A DNA stretch of 64,000 nucleotides from Rhodospirillales bacterium (GTDB lineage Bacteria; Pseudomonadota; Alphaproteobacteria; Rhodospirillales; Shumkoniaceae), in NCBI GenBank assembly GCA_016776725.1, contig JADHSV010000005.1, positions 1 through 64,000 on the forward strand, in the 5' to 3' direction. Shown in pieces: positions 14,926-21,678 of the stretch. The notes under the pieces were generated by a model. The model was given only the letters and a program-made list of their open reading frames with translations. It was not told where the DNA came from and did not search any database. Every line of letters starts with the position of its first letter. The first letter of the stretch is position 1. The translations under genes and the position numbers were made by a program.

Positions 14926-14959
14926 TTGACACCAGGCACCACATTAAGTTAACGTTAAC
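14926..14959 (+). promoter_or_regulatory. Promoter and operator 1 of the LacI-type regulator gene
   Basis: TTGACA at 14926-14931 is followed by a poor -10 region that overlaps a perfect 12-base palindrome, GTTAACGTTAAC, at 14948-14959. The palindrome has the form of a LacI/GalR-family operator. It lies 33 bases before the regulator's own start, so the gene is probably autoregulated. Near-copies occur at 16041 and 16149. Confidence 0.65.
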
Positions 14960-14992: not shown

Positions 14993-16018
14993 ATGCAGGA
15001 ACGTGCGAAACGACCGACCATCAAAGATGTCGCTCGGGAGGCCGGAGTCTCCACCATGACGGTTTCGCGGGTGGTGACGAAAAAGGGCCGCGTTGCGCCG
15101 AAAACGGTCGCCAAAGTCTCGCGTGTCATTGAGGAACTGGGCTATGTCCCCGACCTGAATGCGGGCGGTCTCTCGTCGCGGAACTCGGGTTTCGTTGCCG
15201 TCCTGGTGCCATCCATCGATAATTCGAACTTCGCCCAACAGGCCCGCGGCATTACCGACGCTCTTACCAAGAACGGTCTGCAAATTCTGCTCGGATCGAC
15301 CGATTTTTCCATCGAGCGTGAGGAAACAGTTCTCGGAACCATGCTTCGCCGCCGTCCCGACGGCGTCATCCTGACAGGTGGTAACCATACCGAGGGTAGC
15401 CGCCGAATGCTTGAAAACGCGGGTATACCTGTCGTCGAGACCTGGGACCTGCCACGACAACCCATCGACCATGTTGTCGGTTTTTCCAATATCGCCATCG
15501 CCCAGGCCATGGTCGATCACCTGCATGAACGGGGCTACCGCCACATCGGTTTTATCGGCTCCTCGTCCGCCAGCGATACGCGCGGCGCTGACCGCGAGCG
15601 TGGGTTCTCGGAAGCGCTGCGCAAGCACGCCCTCGACGATTCCCGTGTCATTCGTCTTGGCGCTCCTCCCATTCCGGTCGAACAGGGCGGCGAGGCCATC
15701 GTCGAGATGCTGCGCCGGTGGCCCGATACGGACGCCGTGATGTTCGTATCCGACCGCACCGCATTCGGCGCCATGCAGGAATGCCTGCGACGCGGCTGGC
15801 CGGTGCCCGAGCGCGTCGCCATTGCGGGGTTCGGCAACTTCGACATGGCGCGCAACTGCCACCCCCGCATCACGACGACATCCATCGATTGCTACGAAAT
15901 GGGGCGGTTCGCTGCCGAGCGTATCATCTCGGCAGGAACGCAACTCGCCGACGGCGTCAGCGTCGAACCTGAAATCATCATGATTCCATACCGAATCCTC
16001 GCTCGGCAAACGACATAA
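14993..16018 (+). CDS. LacI/GalR-family transcriptional regulator of the adjacent transport operon
   Basis: A 341-residue repressor-type protein. The N-terminal helix-turn-helix (TIKDVAREAGVSTMTVSRVV, residues about 9-28) and hinge helix (about 50-58) precede a periplasmic-binding-protein-like effector domain (FVAVLVPSIDNSNFAQ onward). The effector domain resembles gluconate-type regulators (GntR of the LacI family), so the ligand may be a small hydroxy acid. Three matching operators, one in front of this gene and two in front of the dehydrogenase-transporter operon, support local control. Start ATG at 14993 with a weak ribosome site. Confidence 0.9.
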   Translation: MQERAKRPTIKDVAREAGVSTMTVSRVVTKKGRVAPKTVAKVSRVIEELGYVPDLNAGGLSSRNSGFVAVLVPSIDNSNFAQQARGITDALTKNGLQILLGSTDFSIEREETVLGTMLRRRPDGVILTGGNHTEGSRRMLENAGIPVVETWDLPRQPIDHVVGFSNIAIAQAMVDHLHERGYRHIGFIGSSSASDTRGADRERGFSEALRKHALDDSRVIRLGAPPIPVEQGGEAIVEMLRRWPDTDAVMFVSDRTAFGAMQECLRRGWPVPERVAIAGFGNFDMARNCHPRITTTSIDCYEMGRFAAERIISAGTQLADGVSVEPEIIMIPYRILARQTT

Positions 16019-16040: not shown

Positions 16041-16054
16041 GGTTAACGATAACC
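16041..16054. promoter_or_regulatory. Operator 2 (imperfect LacI-type palindrome)
   Basis: GGTTAACGATAACC is a 14-base near-palindrome matching the regulator's own operator at the core (GTTAACG-TAAC). It lies 23 bases after the regulator stop and about 100 bases before operator 3, a distance that could allow DNA looping by a tetrameric or dimer-pair repressor. Confidence 0.55.
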
Positions 16055-16133: not shown

Positions 16134-16162
16134 TTGACTCGCAAAATTGTTAACGTTATCAT
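16134..16162 (+). promoter_or_regulatory. Promoter with embedded operator 3 for the dehydrogenase-TctBA-sulfatase-TctC operon
   Basis: TTGACT at 16134-16139 and TATCAT at 16157-16162 are 17 bases apart, a good sigma-70 promoter. Operator-like GTTAACGTTATC fills the spacer at 16149-16160 and reaches into the -10. A repressor bound there would exclude RNA polymerase. The start codon of the first gene is 34 bases downstream. Confidence 0.7.
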
Positions 16163-16195: not shown

Positions 16196-17110
16196 ATGAG
16201 CAAGAATATTAAAGTAGGTCTCATCGGCGTGGGGCTTATGGGCCACGGAATGGGCCACAACATCCTTCAGGGCGGTTTCGAATTGCGGCTCTTCGATCCC
16301 AACAAAACCAAGGGGATGGAGGAACTGACGGGGAGCGGCGCCATGGAAATGCCAAGTGTGCGCGCCGTGGCCGAAAATTCAGACATCGTTTTGTGCAGCC
16401 TTCCCACCGTGCCGGTCATCGCCGAAGTCATCGGCGGGCCTGACGGCGTCATCGAAAGCATCGGCGAGGGCGCGATCATCGTCGACACCTCGACCGGCAC
16501 GCCGGTTCTGGCAACCGGATTTGCCGAGCGCGCCGCCGCCAAGGGCGCGGGATTCGTCGATGCGGCCCTGATGAAGGGGCCGGTGCAGGCGATGGAGGGC
16601 GTTCTCAACGTCATCGCCGGCGGTTCCGATGCCGATGTCGCACGGGTCAAGCCGGTGCTGGATACGTTTTCCGAACAATTCTTCCACGTCGGCCCGGTGG
16701 GCTCCGGCTTCACGGTCAAGCTGCTCAATCAGGCCATCGGGCTCGGCACCCATGCCGTGGTGACCGAGGCTTTTGTTTTGGGAGCCAAGCTGGGAGTGGA
16801 CATCGGCGTGCTGTTCGACATTATCGATTCGGGTCAGGCAAGCTCCGAAAAGTTGAAAATCCTGTCCAAGAAGTTCCTGGATCACGACTACAGCCTGAAA
16901 TTCGCCACCAATACCGGAATCAAGGATCTGCGCCTGTGCGAGCGCATGAGCGTCGACGCCGAGGGGCATACGCCGATTTTGAACACGGTCATCGGATTAT
17001 TCGAGACGAACGCGGCGCTTGGGAACGGAGCAGAGGACGTTTCCACGCTCGCCGCAAGCGTGGGAAAGCTGACAGGAATCGATTTTCCCGAAATCGCCCA
17101 TAAGAAATAG
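16196..17110 (+). CDS. Beta-hydroxyacid dehydrogenase (3-hydroxyisobutyrate / tartronate-semialdehyde family)
   Basis: A 304-residue NAD(P)-dependent enzyme. It has an N-terminal Rossmann fold with GLIGVGLMGHGMGHN, the substrate motif DTSTGTPV, the segment MKGPVQAMEGVLNVIAGG, and the catalytic lysine in GFTVKLLNQAIG near residue 170. The family interconverts beta-hydroxy acids and semialdehydes; members include 3-hydroxyisobutyrate, tartronate semialdehyde and 3-sulfolactaldehyde enzymes. Here it is the first gene behind a LacI-type operator and ahead of a TctABC importer, so it most likely acts on the imported compound or on what the sulfatase releases. The exact substrate is unknown. Confidence 0.88.
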   Translation: MSKNIKVGLIGVGLMGHGMGHNILQGGFELRLFDPNKTKGMEELTGSGAMEMPSVRAVAENSDIVLCSLPTVPVIAEVIGGPDGVIESIGEGAIIVDTSTGTPVLATGFAERAAAKGAGFVDAALMKGPVQAMEGVLNVIAGGSDADVARVKPVLDTFSEQFFHVGPVGSGFTVKLLNQAIGLGTHAVVTEAFVLGAKLGVDIGVLFDIIDSGQASSEKLKILSKKFLDHDYSLKFATNTGIKDLRLCERMSVDAEGHTPILNTVIGLFETNAALGNGAEDVSTLAASVGKLTGIDFPEIAHKK

Positions 17111-17140
17111 CGGCGCAGAGGGGAGCAAGGGTTTTTTGCT

Positions 17141-17632
17141 ATGCGCGACGAGGAAACATTCAAGGGCCGCATTCATCCGGACTTCTACTTCGGCCTGGTC
17201 CTGCTCATCATCGGTACGGGCCTGCTTTTGCATACCTTCAATGACCGCTACGACTTCGACTTGCTGTTCGGTGACGTCTCCACGGTGTTTTTTCCGCGCA
17301 TCATTCTGGTCTTCTGGGTCGGGCTGTCTGCGATTCTGATCTTCAACGGTTTGCGCGGACGCGGGGCGACCGAAGACCGCACCCGTTTGCTGTCGGTCGG
17401 CATTCCCAGGCTGGCGATGGTTTTTGCTGTCATCGTCGCCACGGTCATCGTCCTGTGGCTTGTCGGGCTTCTTGTCGGCGGCCCCATTCTCATGATCGCC
17501 ACCGGGGTGGCGCTGGGCTACCGGCGATGGGTGCTTCTGGTTCCCGTCAGCCTAACGCTGCCCGTCGCCATTTGGTTCGCGCTGGGTCATGTGGCGCGGA
17601 TCAGCCTTCCTTCCGGCATCCTGTGGGATTGA
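17141..17632 (+). CDS. tctB: Tripartite tricarboxylate transporter small membrane subunit TctB
   Basis: A 163-residue protein with about four membrane segments (FYFGLVLLIIGTGLLL, TVFFPRIILVFWVGL, MVFAVIVATVIVLWLVG and a C-terminal one), typical for TctB. It follows the dehydrogenase after 30 bases with GAGGGGAGCAAGG as ribosome site and ends 4 bases before tctA. TctB and TctA form the membrane part of a solute importer that takes its substrate from periplasmic TctC. Confidence 0.88.
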   Translation: MRDEETFKGRIHPDFYFGLVLLIIGTGLLLHTFNDRYDFDLLFGDVSTVFFPRIILVFWVGLSAILIFNGLRGRGATEDRTRLLSVGIPRLAMVFAVIVATVIVLWLVGLLVGGPILMIATGVALGYRRWVLLVPVSLTLPVAIWFALGHVARISLPSGILWD

Positions 17633-17636
17633 TCGC

Positions 17637-19151
17637 ATGATTGAGCATCTTCCCGAAGCGATGTCGTTGGCGTTTTCGTGGCATGCCCTGCTGGCGGTTC
17701 TCGCTGGCAGCGTGGTTGGTGTCGTGGTCGGCGTTTTGCCGGGGCTTGGCAGCGCGCTTGGGCTGGTCATGGTGCTGCCGATTACCTTCGGTCTGGAACC
17801 GGCGGCGGCCATCGCCGTGCTGGTGTCGGTCTATGCGTGTTCGATCTATGGCGGATCGGTCTCGGCGATCCTGATCAACGTGCCCGGTACGCCACAATCG
17901 GCGGCGACGGTCATCGACGGCTATCCCATGGCGCAGCAGGGCAAGGCGGCTCTGGCGCTCGGCTGGGCCACCGTGGGCTCGTTCATCGGCGGCATGTTCT
18001 CGCTTGTCTTGTTGGTTCTGACTGCGCCGCAACTGGCGAAATTCTCGCTGAACTTCGGCCCCATCGAAACCTTCGCCCTTATTCTTTTTGCCATGACCAC
18101 CATTGCCTGGGTGTCCCATGGCAGCATGGTGAAGGGTGTTCTGGCGTCCTTGATCGGGGTTTTTCTCGGGCTCGTCGGGCCTGATCAAATGACCGGCCAA
18201 ATCCGGTTCGACTTCGATTTCTTCGCCCTTTCCGGCGGCTTTGCGCTGGTGCCCGTTCTCATCGGCATCTTCGCAATGTCGGAAGTTCTCATTCAGGCGG
18301 CGTTCCTTAAGGACGCATCCGCGCCAACCGTCATCGAGGGCGGGTTCAAACTGGCTCCGTGGCACGAATGGTGTATACGCTGGAAGACCTTCCTGCGCAG
18401 CAGCGTCATTGGTAGCTTCATCGGCATCCTGCCGGGCACCGGTGCGACCGCAGCGGCCTTCATCGCCTATGCCGACGCCAAGCGCAACTCGCCACGCACT
18501 GGCAATTTCGGCCATGGCGAACCGGAAGGCGTTGTCGCCTCCGAGACCGCCAACAACGCGGTCAGCGGTGGTGCGATGATCCCCATGCTGGCCCTGGGAA
18601 TTCCCGGTGACGGCGTGACGGCGATTATGATGGGGGCGTTGACGATCCATGGGATCGTGCCCGGCGTCCGTCTATTCAGCGATCAACCGGCACTGGTGAC
18701 CAGCATCTTCCTTCTGTTTTTCCTCGCCAATTTTCTGATTCTGATCGTCGGTGCCGCCGGTGCGGGCCTCTATGCCCGTTTGCTGCGCGCGCCGATGTCG
18801 CTGTTGATGCCTGCGGTCGCACTTCTGTCCTTCGTCGGCGCCTATGCCACGCGAAGCGCCCCTTTCGACTTCACCGTCGCGATCGTTGCCGGTGTGGTTG
18901 GTTTTTTATTGCGCCTCAACGGGTTCCCCCTGGCGCCGATTATCATCGGGTTCATTCTGGGCCGACCGCTGGAGATGTCGTTGCGCCAAGGCTTGGTCAT
19001 GACCGACCAGAATTTCTTTGCTTTCGCCCTCAGCCCCATCGCGGCGGTACTGTTCGCGCTCACGGTCGTGGTGCTGCTTCATCCCGTTATCACCAAATGC
19101 ATCAGCGCGTTGCGCGGGAACGGTTCCGACAGCGCCAAAGAGATGAATTGA
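17637..19151 (+). CDS. tctA: Tripartite tricarboxylate transporter large membrane subunit TctA
   Basis: A 504-residue, very hydrophobic permease with 11-12 membrane segments. Family signatures are GVLPGLGSALGLVMVLPITF near residue 35 and the repeated form GILPGTGATAAAFIAYADAKR near residue 265. The second is followed by a conserved EGVVASETANNAVSGGAMIP stretch. The start ATG at 17637 was chosen because upstream codons fall in tctB and are not conserved. It is followed without a gap by the sulfatase gene. Confidence 0.93.
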   Translation: MIEHLPEAMSLAFSWHALLAVLAGSVVGVVVGVLPGLGSALGLVMVLPITFGLEPAAAIAVLVSVYACSIYGGSVSAILINVPGTPQSAATVIDGYPMAQQGKAALALGWATVGSFIGGMFSLVLLVLTAPQLAKFSLNFGPIETFALILFAMTTIAWVSHGSMVKGVLASLIGVFLGLVGPDQMTGQIRFDFDFFALSGGFALVPVLIGIFAMSEVLIQAAFLKDASAPTVIEGGFKLAPWHEWCIRWKTFLRSSVIGSFIGILPGTGATAAAFIAYADAKRNSPRTGNFGHGEPEGVVASETANNAVSGGAMIPMLALGIPGDGVTAIMMGALTIHGIVPGVRLFSDQPALVTSIFLLFFLANFLILIVGAAGAGLYARLLRAPMSLLMPAVALLSFVGAYATRSAPFDFTVAIVAGVVGFLLRLNGFPLAPIIIGFILGRPLEMSLRQGLVMTDQNFFAFALSPIAAVLFALTVVVLLHPVITKCISALRGNGSDSAKEMN

Positions 19152-20642
19152 ATGGGTCAAGCCATGTCCACACGACCAAACGTCCTGCTGATTACTGTCG
19201 ATCAATGGCCCGGTTTTCTTCTCGGCGCGGCCGGTCATCCGGTGATCGAGACGCCGACCATCGACACCCTGGCGGCGGCTGGAACCCGCTATGCAGCAAC
19301 CTACAGCGAATGCCCGATCTGCATTCCGGCGCGGCGCACCCTAATGACCGGTCTCAGCCCGCGAGGCCACGGCGACCGTGTATTCAAGACCCAGGAACCC
19401 ATGCCGGACGCGCCGACGTTGGCCTCGACCTTCCGCGCCAACGGCTATCAAGCGACGTCGGTTGGCAAGCTGCATGTCTATCCGCAACGCGACCGCATCG
19501 GTTTCGACGACACCATTATCGCCGAGGAAGGCCGTCCCCAATTGGGCGCGGTTGACGACTACGACACTTTCCTGGCTGACCGGGGGCTGGCCGGACAGCA
19601 GTTCATGCACGGCATGAGCAACAACGAGTACGCTTGGCGCGAATGGCATCTGTCGGAGTTTGATCATGTCACCAATTGGACGGCGCGAGAAACATGCCGT
19701 GCCATCAAGCGCCGCGATCCGACGCGCCCGGCCTTCTGGAACATGTCCTTCACGCACCCCCACCCTCCGCTGGTGCCGTTGCGCTCTTATCTGGAACGCT
19801 ACGAACGCTCGGCCATCGACGCGCCGGTAAACGGCGACTGGGCGGAAAACTTCGACGATTTGCCCCATGCCCTGCAGCTGGTGCGCCTTTACTGGTCTGA
19901 ATTGAGCCCCAGGGCGATGATCGAGATGCGCCGCGCCTTCTATGCCCTTTGCACCCATATCGATCATCAAATCCGGGTGGTGCTGGGAACGTTACGCGAG
20001 GAGGGGCTTCTCGACAACACGGCCATCTTGTTCACCGCCGATCATGGCGATATGCAGGGCAATCACGGGCTCTATGCCAAGCGCCTGTTCCTGGAGCCCT
20101 CTGCCTGCGTTCCGACCTTCCTGGTCCTGCCCAAGGGCGACATGGCTGAATCGCGCGGCAGCGTGCGCGAAGATCTTTTCGGGCTGGCCGACGTGATGCC
20201 GACGCTGCTCGAAATCGCCGGTATCACGGTGCCCGATACGTGCGAGGGCATCTCCATGCTCGGCAGCGAGGGGCGGCCGTTCTTCTACGGTGAATGTATG
20301 GAGGACGGAAAGGCCACGCGCATGATCCGCGAAGGCGGGTTCAAGCTAATCTGGTATCCGGCCGGTAACCGCGTGCAGTTGTTCGATCTGGCAAACGATC
20401 CGAAAGAATGCCGAAATCTGGCCGACGATGCGGCCCACGCCGAAACCCGCAAGCGGTTGGAGACCACCTTGATTTCACAGCTTTACGGCGTCGACCTCGA
20501 TTGGATCGAGGGCGATCAACTCAAGGGCTTCGAAGCCCCTGACCTTCCGCGGCTGGACAACCGCGGTCTGTCGGGGCAGCGCGGCCTCCACTACCCCACC
20601 CCGCCCTTTGATGCCAAGGGGCAGGTGGTGGGTACCATCTGA
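19152..20642 (+). CDS. Cytoplasmic sulfatase (alkaline-phosphatase superfamily)
   Basis: A 496-residue type I sulfatase. The formylglycine motif CIPAR (Cys57 in SECPICIPARRTLMTG) and the metal-binding segments VDQW near residue 17 and TADHGDMQGNHG near residue 300 are present. There is no signal peptide, so it should act inside the cell on a compound brought in by TctABC, inside whose gene set it is encoded. Choline sulfatases and phosphonate monoester hydrolases share this architecture and cannot be excluded. A sulfatase-activating enzyme is not seen in the window. The ATG directly abuts the tctA stop; an ATG four codons later is possible. Confidence 0.85.
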   Translation: MGQAMSTRPNVLLITVDQWPGFLLGAAGHPVIETPTIDTLAAAGTRYAATYSECPICIPARRTLMTGLSPRGHGDRVFKTQEPMPDAPTLASTFRANGYQATSVGKLHVYPQRDRIGFDDTIIAEEGRPQLGAVDDYDTFLADRGLAGQQFMHGMSNNEYAWREWHLSEFDHVTNWTARETCRAIKRRDPTRPAFWNMSFTHPHPPLVPLRSYLERYERSAIDAPVNGDWAENFDDLPHALQLVRLYWSELSPRAMIEMRRAFYALCTHIDHQIRVVLGTLREEGLLDNTAILFTADHGDMQGNHGLYAKRLFLEPSACVPTFLVLPKGDMAESRGSVREDLFGLADVMPTLLEIAGITVPDTCEGISMLGSEGRPFFYGECMEDGKATRMIREGGFKLIWYPAGNRVQLFDLANDPKECRNLADDAAHAETRKRLETTLISQLYGVDLDWIEGDQLKGFEAPDLPRLDNRGLSGQRGLHYPTPPFDAKGQVVGTI

Positions 20643-20682
20643 GACACGACAGGGAACCACTTGAAAAAATGGGAGAAAGACC

Positions 20683-21621
20683 ATGATTAAGCGTATCTTC
20701 GGTGCCGCCCTAGCGGCCACCGTCATCGCCCTGCCGGCGGTGGCCGAATACCCCGATAAGGACATCAAGCTGATCGTGCCCTATGGCGCAGGTGGCGGCA
20801 CCGACACGGCGGCCCGCCTGATCCAGCCGCATCTCGAAAAGGTACTGGGATCGAACCTTATCGTCGTCAACATGCCGGGTGCTGGCGGCACCATTGGCGC
20901 GACCAACTTCGCCCAGACCAAAGCAGACGGCTACACGCTGGCTTTTCTGCCGGCGGGTACCGCAGTCGTGCAGCCCCACCTTCGCAAGCTGCAATACAAT
21001 GAAAGCAGCTTCGAGCCCGTCTGCAGGACCATCCAGGAACCGGTCGCCATTATGGTGGGGCCGGAATCCGAGTACACAACACTAGACAAGCTGATGGCGG
21101 CCGCGAAGGCCGGCAAAGTGTCGGCGGCAGGTTCTGCTCCCGGCTCGTTCCCCCATATCGGCGCGGTTCTGGTTCAGAAAAACTATGACGTGAAAATCAA
21201 ATACGTTCCGCATGAAGGCGGTGCCAAATCTGCCCGTTCGGTGCTCGGTGGCAAGGTCGACATGCTCGTCGACAACATCGGCCTGGCAGCCAAATTTGGA
21301 ATCAAGGCCCTTGCCGTACTTTCGGACAAGCGCGCCAAATCGATGCCCGATGTGCCGACCATCGACGAACTGGGCGGGCCTCCGATCCGCCTGTCGATCT
21401 GGTGGGGCCTCTTTGCTCCTGCTGGCACGTCTGCCGCCGTTTTGGATAAACTCGCGTCGGCATGTGCCGAAGCTGGCACCTCGAGCGCCTATATCAGTTC
21501 GGTGAAGGCTGCGAACAAGACGCCTAACTTCCTCGGCGCTGGAAAGTTCAAGGCGTTGTTCTTGGAGCAGTACAAGGCGAATGCGACCCTGTTCCAGGAA
21601 ATCGGATTGAAGAAGAAATAG
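20683..21621 (+). CDS. tctC: Tripartite tricarboxylate transporter substrate-binding protein TctC
   Basis: A 312-residue Bug-family receptor with a signal peptide (MIKRIFGAALAATVIALPAVA) and the usual opening YPDKDIKLIVPYGAGGGTDT. VNMPGAGGTIGA and the Asp-containing loop VDMLVDNIGLA follow. It binds the solute in the periplasm and delivers it to TctAB. Bug proteins bind carboxylates of very different kinds, so the ligand cannot be named. The gene is preceded by GGGAGAAAG and closed by a terminator 30 bases after its stop, marking the end of the operon. Confidence 0.92.
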   Translation: MIKRIFGAALAATVIALPAVAEYPDKDIKLIVPYGAGGGTDTAARLIQPHLEKVLGSNLIVVNMPGAGGTIGATNFAQTKADGYTLAFLPAGTAVVQPHLRKLQYNESSFEPVCRTIQEPVAIMVGPESEYTTLDKLMAAAKAGKVSAAGSAPGSFPHIGAVLVQKNYDVKIKYVPHEGGAKSARSVLGGKVDMLVDNIGLAAKFGIKALAVLSDKRAKSMPDVPTIDELGGPPIRLSIWWGLFAPAGTSAAVLDKLASACAEAGTSSAYISSVKAANKTPNFLGAGKFKALFLEQYKANATLFQEIGLKKK

Positions 21622-21650: not shown

Positions 21651-21678
21651 AGCCGCGCCTTCGGGCGCGGCTTTTTTT
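21651..21678 (+). terminator. Intrinsic terminator of the TctABC-sulfatase operon
   Basis: A 9-base-pair GC-rich stem (AGCCGCGCC/GGCGCGGCT) with a TTCG tetraloop is followed by seven T. Confidence 0.93.

Follow-up and report, generated by a model that had tools for sequence, protein, structure and literature searches.

The operon that extends from position 16196 to 21621 of the window, the whole 64,000-nucleotide stretch analysed here, is probably controlled by LacI and dedicated to importing a sulfated sugar acid, desulfating it in the cytosol and oxidising the product. It is well supported that the importer and the cytosolic sulfatase form one functional unit. A sulfated sugar acid is the likely substrate class, the predicted substrate probably being a small C3-C6 hydroxycarboxylate with a sulfate ester. 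Sulfated organic matter is usually considered to be desulfated outside the cytosol and then taken up. Since a carboxylate importer is encoded here with an intracellular sulfatase whose relatives lie beside sugar-acid pathways, uptake of whole sulfated sugar acids for carbon is probable.

In the proposed mechanism, LacI would keep the operon off through three palindromic operators, one of them on the -10 element. The periplasmic TctC would catch the anion and TctA/TctB would carry it inward, the three proteins being assigned to their families by Pfam. The S1 sulfatase, matured by a formylglycine-generating enzyme (FGE), would then strip the sulfate in the cytosol, and the dehydrogenase would use NAD(P)+ to oxidise the hydroxy acid so released, feeding central metabolism.

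Gene arrangement and predicted operators

The genes lacI, dehydrogenase, tctB, tctA, sulfatase and tctC follow one another in this order on the + strand. The LacI-type regulator (14993-16018), called from its ORF and profile matches, is separated by 177 nt from the gene of a beta-hydroxyacid dehydrogenase family member (16196-17110; ORF, PF03446 and PF14833), so lacI need not share its transcript. Then come tctB (17141-17632; PF07331), the small membrane subunit of the importer, tctA (17637-19151; PF01970), its large permease subunit, the cytosolic S1 formylglycine-type sulfatase (19152-20642; Pfam and residues, with a second ATG at 19164) and tctC (20683-21621; PF03401), the periplasmic binding protein with an N-terminal signal sequence. 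All three TctABC subunits are encoded together, and their Pfam matches exceed the cut-offs. The gaps from dehydrogenase to tctC are 30, 4, 0 and 40 nt. The longest tctA ORF starts at 17589, giving a 44-nt overlap with tctB instead of the 4-nt spacing, but the ATG at 17637 is the likelier start. A terminator scan placed a strong intrinsic terminator, with a 9-pair stem followed by a T run, at 21651-21672 (+). ORF calls and Pfam matches bore out all gene positions of the initial annotation, and its tight single-strand array with one terminator was also recovered. Its inclusion of lacI among the operon genes holds as far as the upstream position on the same strand; the gene itself lies outside the operon interval, 177 nt away.

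The upstream flank contains pdxA- and rsmA-like genes of housekeeping type (translations read by eye). Downstream, on the other strand, are a carboxyltransferase-domain protein (Pfam) and gmk- and yicC-like genes (translations read by eye). The former, KipA/PxpC-like (PF02626, 21928-22947, -), is a lone gene with no adjoining partner subunit seen. The G+C content of the operon showed no contrast with its flanks.

A pattern search found a perfect palindrome, GTTAWCGWTAAC, on both sides of lacI, as the operator-like sites GTTAACGTTAAC upstream of the gene (14948-14959) and GTTAACGATAAC (16042-16053), and a near-perfect third copy, GTTAACGTTATC (16149-16160), over the -10 element of the operon promoter. 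This promoter-like sequence, TTGACT-17-TATCAT (16134-16162, +), is the best-scoring site of the promoter scan 5' of the dehydrogenase. The three operator copies had been overlooked in the initial annotation. With at most one mismatch, the palindrome gave 10 strand-wise matches in the 64-kb window against a chance mean of 0.71. Without mismatch, no further copy was found in the window's own genome or in G002, a second genome of the family, and a reversed control pattern gave zero matches in both. G002, whose lacI ortholog is 81% identical, has the same operator arrangement around its lacI and operon: the layout upstream of lacI is the same, GTTAACGATAAC is conserved, and TTGACT is kept in the intergenic alignment. 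The best NCBIfam match of LacI is a gluconate-type GntR model, under cut-off, and its nearest relatives are GntR-type members. LacI is best described as a putative local repressor, with predicted operators at its own promoter and at that of the operon, and it may autoregulate through the putative operator GTTAACGTTAAC.

The sulfatase and its relatives

The sulfatase contains PF00884 and SGSH_C domains (Pfam). The formylglycine motif CIPAR of the initial annotation corresponds to residues 57-61 and is of the S1 CxPxR type, and the S1 catalytic set is complete (D17, Q18, C57, R61, K106, H108, H204, D297, H298, K310). The nearest solved relatives, by sequence and by predicted structure (mean pLDDT 78), are the Enterococcus faecium arylsulfatase EfAS (PDB 9koq) and BT1918 (PDB 7oz8, SulfAtlas S1_46), at about 30% identity; they share the fold and catalytic residues with the window enzyme, D17, Q18, K106, H108, H204, D297, H298 and K310 being aligned in both. 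Inactivating mutations of EfAS are known by residue (PMC12421950). The activity-essential residues are all present in the window sulfatase according to the alignment, and nearly all are invariant among 31 relatives, a few of which have DH instead of DQ. BT1918 of Bacteroides is a periplasmic 3S,6S-GlcNAc sulfatase (PMC10154612), unlike the cytosolic window enzyme, whose N-terminus, MGQAMSTRPNVLLITVDQ, shows no signal peptide on inspection. The available text of the two papers makes no mention of a TctABC importer for either enzyme. The start of TctC resembles a signal peptide as read from its sequence, and an FGE gene is present elsewhere in the window's own genome (contig C27, PF03781, 191.9 bits). 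From these sequence features, the protein is predicted to be a cytosolic S1 formylglycine sulfatase that hydrolyses sulfate esters.

A choline sulfatase (BetC) assignment was rejected, with 216.8 bits on TIGR03417 against a cut-off of 433.45. Choline-O-sulfate utilisation combines an importer with the cytosolic choline sulfatase BetC. The proposed route resembles it in that an intact sulfate ester would be imported and then desulfated by an S1 enzyme in the cytosol, but the window has other neighbours and its importer type suggests an anionic carboxylate.

Sulfatase orthologs, with roughly 52-80% identity, were found in Rhizobiales, Rhodospirillales, Rhodobacterales, Comamonadaceae, Burkholderiaceae and Enterobacterales. 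At the thresholds used the family is rare, with 8/317 genomes of the order and 2/385 of the class, both counts including the window's own genome. The co-occurrence of the six genes, which the initial annotation had proposed to look for in other genomes, was limited to the own genome and G002, where the set is about 80% identical; being restricted to two genomes, it was dropped as the main argument. A 31-member tree places the window sulfatase with those of a Rhizobiales MAG, G002 and a Chelativorans plasmid (support 99/100), the Chelativorans gene lying 3' of TctC-TctB-TctA and of a second sulfatase. TctC and/or TctA adjoin 21 of the 31 members or lie within a few genes of them, while seven (six Enterobacterales and Paraburkholderia) adjoin an MFS transporter behind a divergent LysR, one is near ABC transporters and two have no identified transporter. 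The Enterobacterales with the MFS and LysR genes are Kosakonia, Phytobacter, Superficieibacter, Cedecea, Izhakiella and Sodalis (L056, L057, L058, L060, L061, L063); in Sodalis endolongispinus the MFS gene seems split. One TAG was reported within the open frame surrounding the sulfatase match of genome G300 (L079, 9113-10627), yet the 504-aa ORF used is open.

Sugar-acid enzymes near the orthologs and the dehydrogenase

The operon of Paracoccus seriniphilus has the order sulfatase-tctC-tctB-tctA-ltnD-otnK-otnC-otnI, and its LtnD scores 422 bits on NF043037, above the cut-off of 350. LtnD, OtnK, OtnC and OtnI belong to the L-threonate/D-erythronate (tetronate) catabolic pathway (PMC12540250). 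Tetronate operons share a beta-hydroxyacid dehydrogenase and an importer with the window operon, and that of P. seriniphilus adds the orthologous sulfatase; in contrast, the window operon contains no kinase, decarboxylase or isomerase and its dehydrogenase is not LtnD. The tetronate pathway was rejected for the window's own genome, since a search of 74% of it turned up no DUF1537 (OtnK) kinase. Another G002 ortholog has a UlaD/UlaE/UlaF-like set next to it, made up of PfkB, a TIM barrel resembling UlaE, a decarboxylase resembling UlaD (236.5 bits, with the cut-off at 250), a class II aldolase and a lactonase-like protein. Members from Rhodospirillales have a UxaA/galactarate-type dehydratase and enolase-superfamily dehydratases nearby, further orthologs have aldolases, and in Rhizobium wenxiniae the genes about 5 kb downstream include one for a RuBisCO-like protein and one for a DUF1537 kinase. 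These neighbourhoods serve as independent pointers to sulfated sugar acids, not to one substrate; since the pathways differ (threonate, gulonate-like, galactarate/altronate-like), the sulfatase family may have several substrates.

The dehydrogenase has both superfamily domains, PF03446 and PF14833, and the catalytic lysine in KLLNQ is aligned. Where the canonical substrate loop reads DAPxSGG, as it does in Paracoccus LtnD (28% identity), the window protein and that of G002 have DAALMKGP. The protein falls under every NCBIfam cut-off, and its assignments as LtnD (140.3 bits on NF043037 against 350) and as tartronate semialdehyde reductase, HIBADH or sulfolactaldehyde reductase were rejected on these grounds. 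It is the least conserved partner in the operon, with an ortholog beside the orthologous sulfatase only in the own genome and G002; the short contig of the Rhizobiales MAG does not allow a judgement. On plasmids its only relatives are Sinorhizobium genes, 35% identical and in an ABC sugar context. Since the dehydrogenase is poorly conserved, lacks DAPxSGG and scores under the cut-offs, its action after desulfation is the weakest step of the proposal. Of the import-desulfation-oxidation route of the initial annotation, cytosolic desulfation of an imported carboxylate is supported by the recurrent importers and sugar-acid enzymes, while oxidation is a step that we infer.

A wider TctABC-sulfatase module and alternative readings

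The window operon is one instance of a more widespread TctABC-sulfatase module. In its own genome, 14 tctA genes and seven sulfatase genes were counted, each of the seven within 6 kb of a tctA. Counted as clusters, 4/4 are near tctA (P ~4e-5), and so are 13/18 in G002, with its 39 tctA (P ~1e-9); both P values come from uniform placement, which ignores gene clustering, and are rough. Contigs C9 and C22 of the own genome contain the order enolase-superfamily dehydratase-tctC-tctB-tctA-dehydrogenase-membrane protein-SDR-sulfatase, and contig C29 combines several sulfatase genes with two tctA and with genes for an IlvD/EDD dehydratase and an HpcH aldolase. A TctA tree was built with all TctA of the own genome (G000) and G002 plus linked TctA from elsewhere. 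On the full tree, sulfatase linkage required 10 changes, where shuffling gave 23.1 on average (0/500 as low); on the complete two-genome set it required 9, where 300 shuffles averaged 15.6 and never went below 12. Near-identical orthologs inflate this clustering. The window TctA belongs to a clade (support 99) that has 13 members, 10 sulfatase-linked ones among them, and that also contains the permeases of the Paracoccus threonate operon and of the G002 UlaD-like operon. Among plasmid TctC matches at E<1e-50, only that of the P. seriniphilus sulfatase operon appeared. The window importer is a TctABC/Bug tripartite tricarboxylate transporter by its three subunits, but it differs from others in being encoded with a cytosolic sulfatase and in that its permease falls into clades where many members are sulfatase-linked.

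Since TctABC genes are so plentiful in both genomes, importer and sulfatase could be functionally unrelated, adjacent by chance or in a mobile cassette, with TctC binding an ordinary dicarboxylate. This is very improbable, because the association far exceeds uniform expectation, the pairing recurs in Alpha- and Betaproteobacteria, and the linkage labels cluster on the TctA tree. TctABC importers are able to carry aromatic acids, TctC is similar to a solved terephthalate-binding protein, among others, and the nearest NCBIfam model of the sulfatase is an arylsulfatase, under its cut-off, all of which would fit a sulfated phenolic acid or another aryl sulfate carboxylate. However, sugar-acid enzymes, and no aromatic-ring degradation genes, were seen near the annotated orthologs, which makes such a substrate improbable.

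The enzyme might instead belong to the phosphonate or phosphate ester hydrolases of its superfamily and act on an imported phospho- or phosphono-carboxylate, given that PehA and phosphonate monoester hydrolases are relatives and that EfAS cleaves esters of phosphate, phosphonate and sulfate with no more than tenfold differences. Yet EfAS favours sulfate five- to sevenfold (both from PMC12421950), the window enzyme matches sulfatases best (391 bits for the arylsulfatase PRK13759 vs 145 bits for PehA) and the folds nearest to the predicted model are those of EfAS and the S1_46 sulfatase BT1918, so that this activity is quite unlikely. Sulfur scavenging, in which sulfate would be freed from various imported organosulfates under sulfate shortage with carbon incidental, agrees with the acceptance of many esters by S1 sulfatases and with the promiscuity of EfAS, the nearest solved relative (same source). 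We regard it as unlikely: the operon has a dedicated local LacI whose operators are absent elsewhere in both genomes, the sugar-acid catabolic neighbours recurring in relatives point to carbon use, and no sulfate-assimilation genes were seen in the operon.

Import of an intact sulfated sugar acid followed by desulfation inside the cell, if true, would account for many uncharacterised sulfatases adjoining TctABC genes. It would also supply testable ligands for a large family of orphan transporters and suggest that sulfated sugar acids are a nutrient pool. More tentatively, some TctABC sub-families could be dedicated to sulfated sugar acids and constitute, with cytosolic S1 sulfatases, an undescribed carbon route of Proteobacteria, with ascorbate 2-sulfate as the candidate beside threonate/UlaD-like genes. 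The open-access literature searched, which leaves out most subscription journals, contained no description of the module and no paper on a bacterial ascorbate 2-sulfate sulfatase.

Two further protein families accompany these clusters. X11 (about 460-493 aa) is encoded beside TctABC-linked sulfatases in several genomes (L042 9871-11247, on contig C29 of the own genome; L046 7508-8989; L049 2-1072; L074 10189-11634). It gave no Pfam match and no PDB relative, and its predicted structure (pLDDT 35) is unusable; motifs such as GLRVDWPEYPPY suggest a candidate TIM-barrel glycosidase. The second is a membrane protein of about 400 aa, again lacking Pfam matches, which the C9 sulfatase cluster encodes between its dehydrogenase and its SDR (C9/C22 loci L091 3022-4332 and L044 9367-10750, that of C22 assigned by position); as one guess, it could be an exporter of product or sulfate. 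In addition, plasmid p420573 of P. seriniphilus carries two adjoining sulfatase-TctCBA modules at 90-130 kb (L083/L085), with tetronate, FGGY-kinase/aldolase and uronate genes as neighbours, and is a good cultured model of the module.
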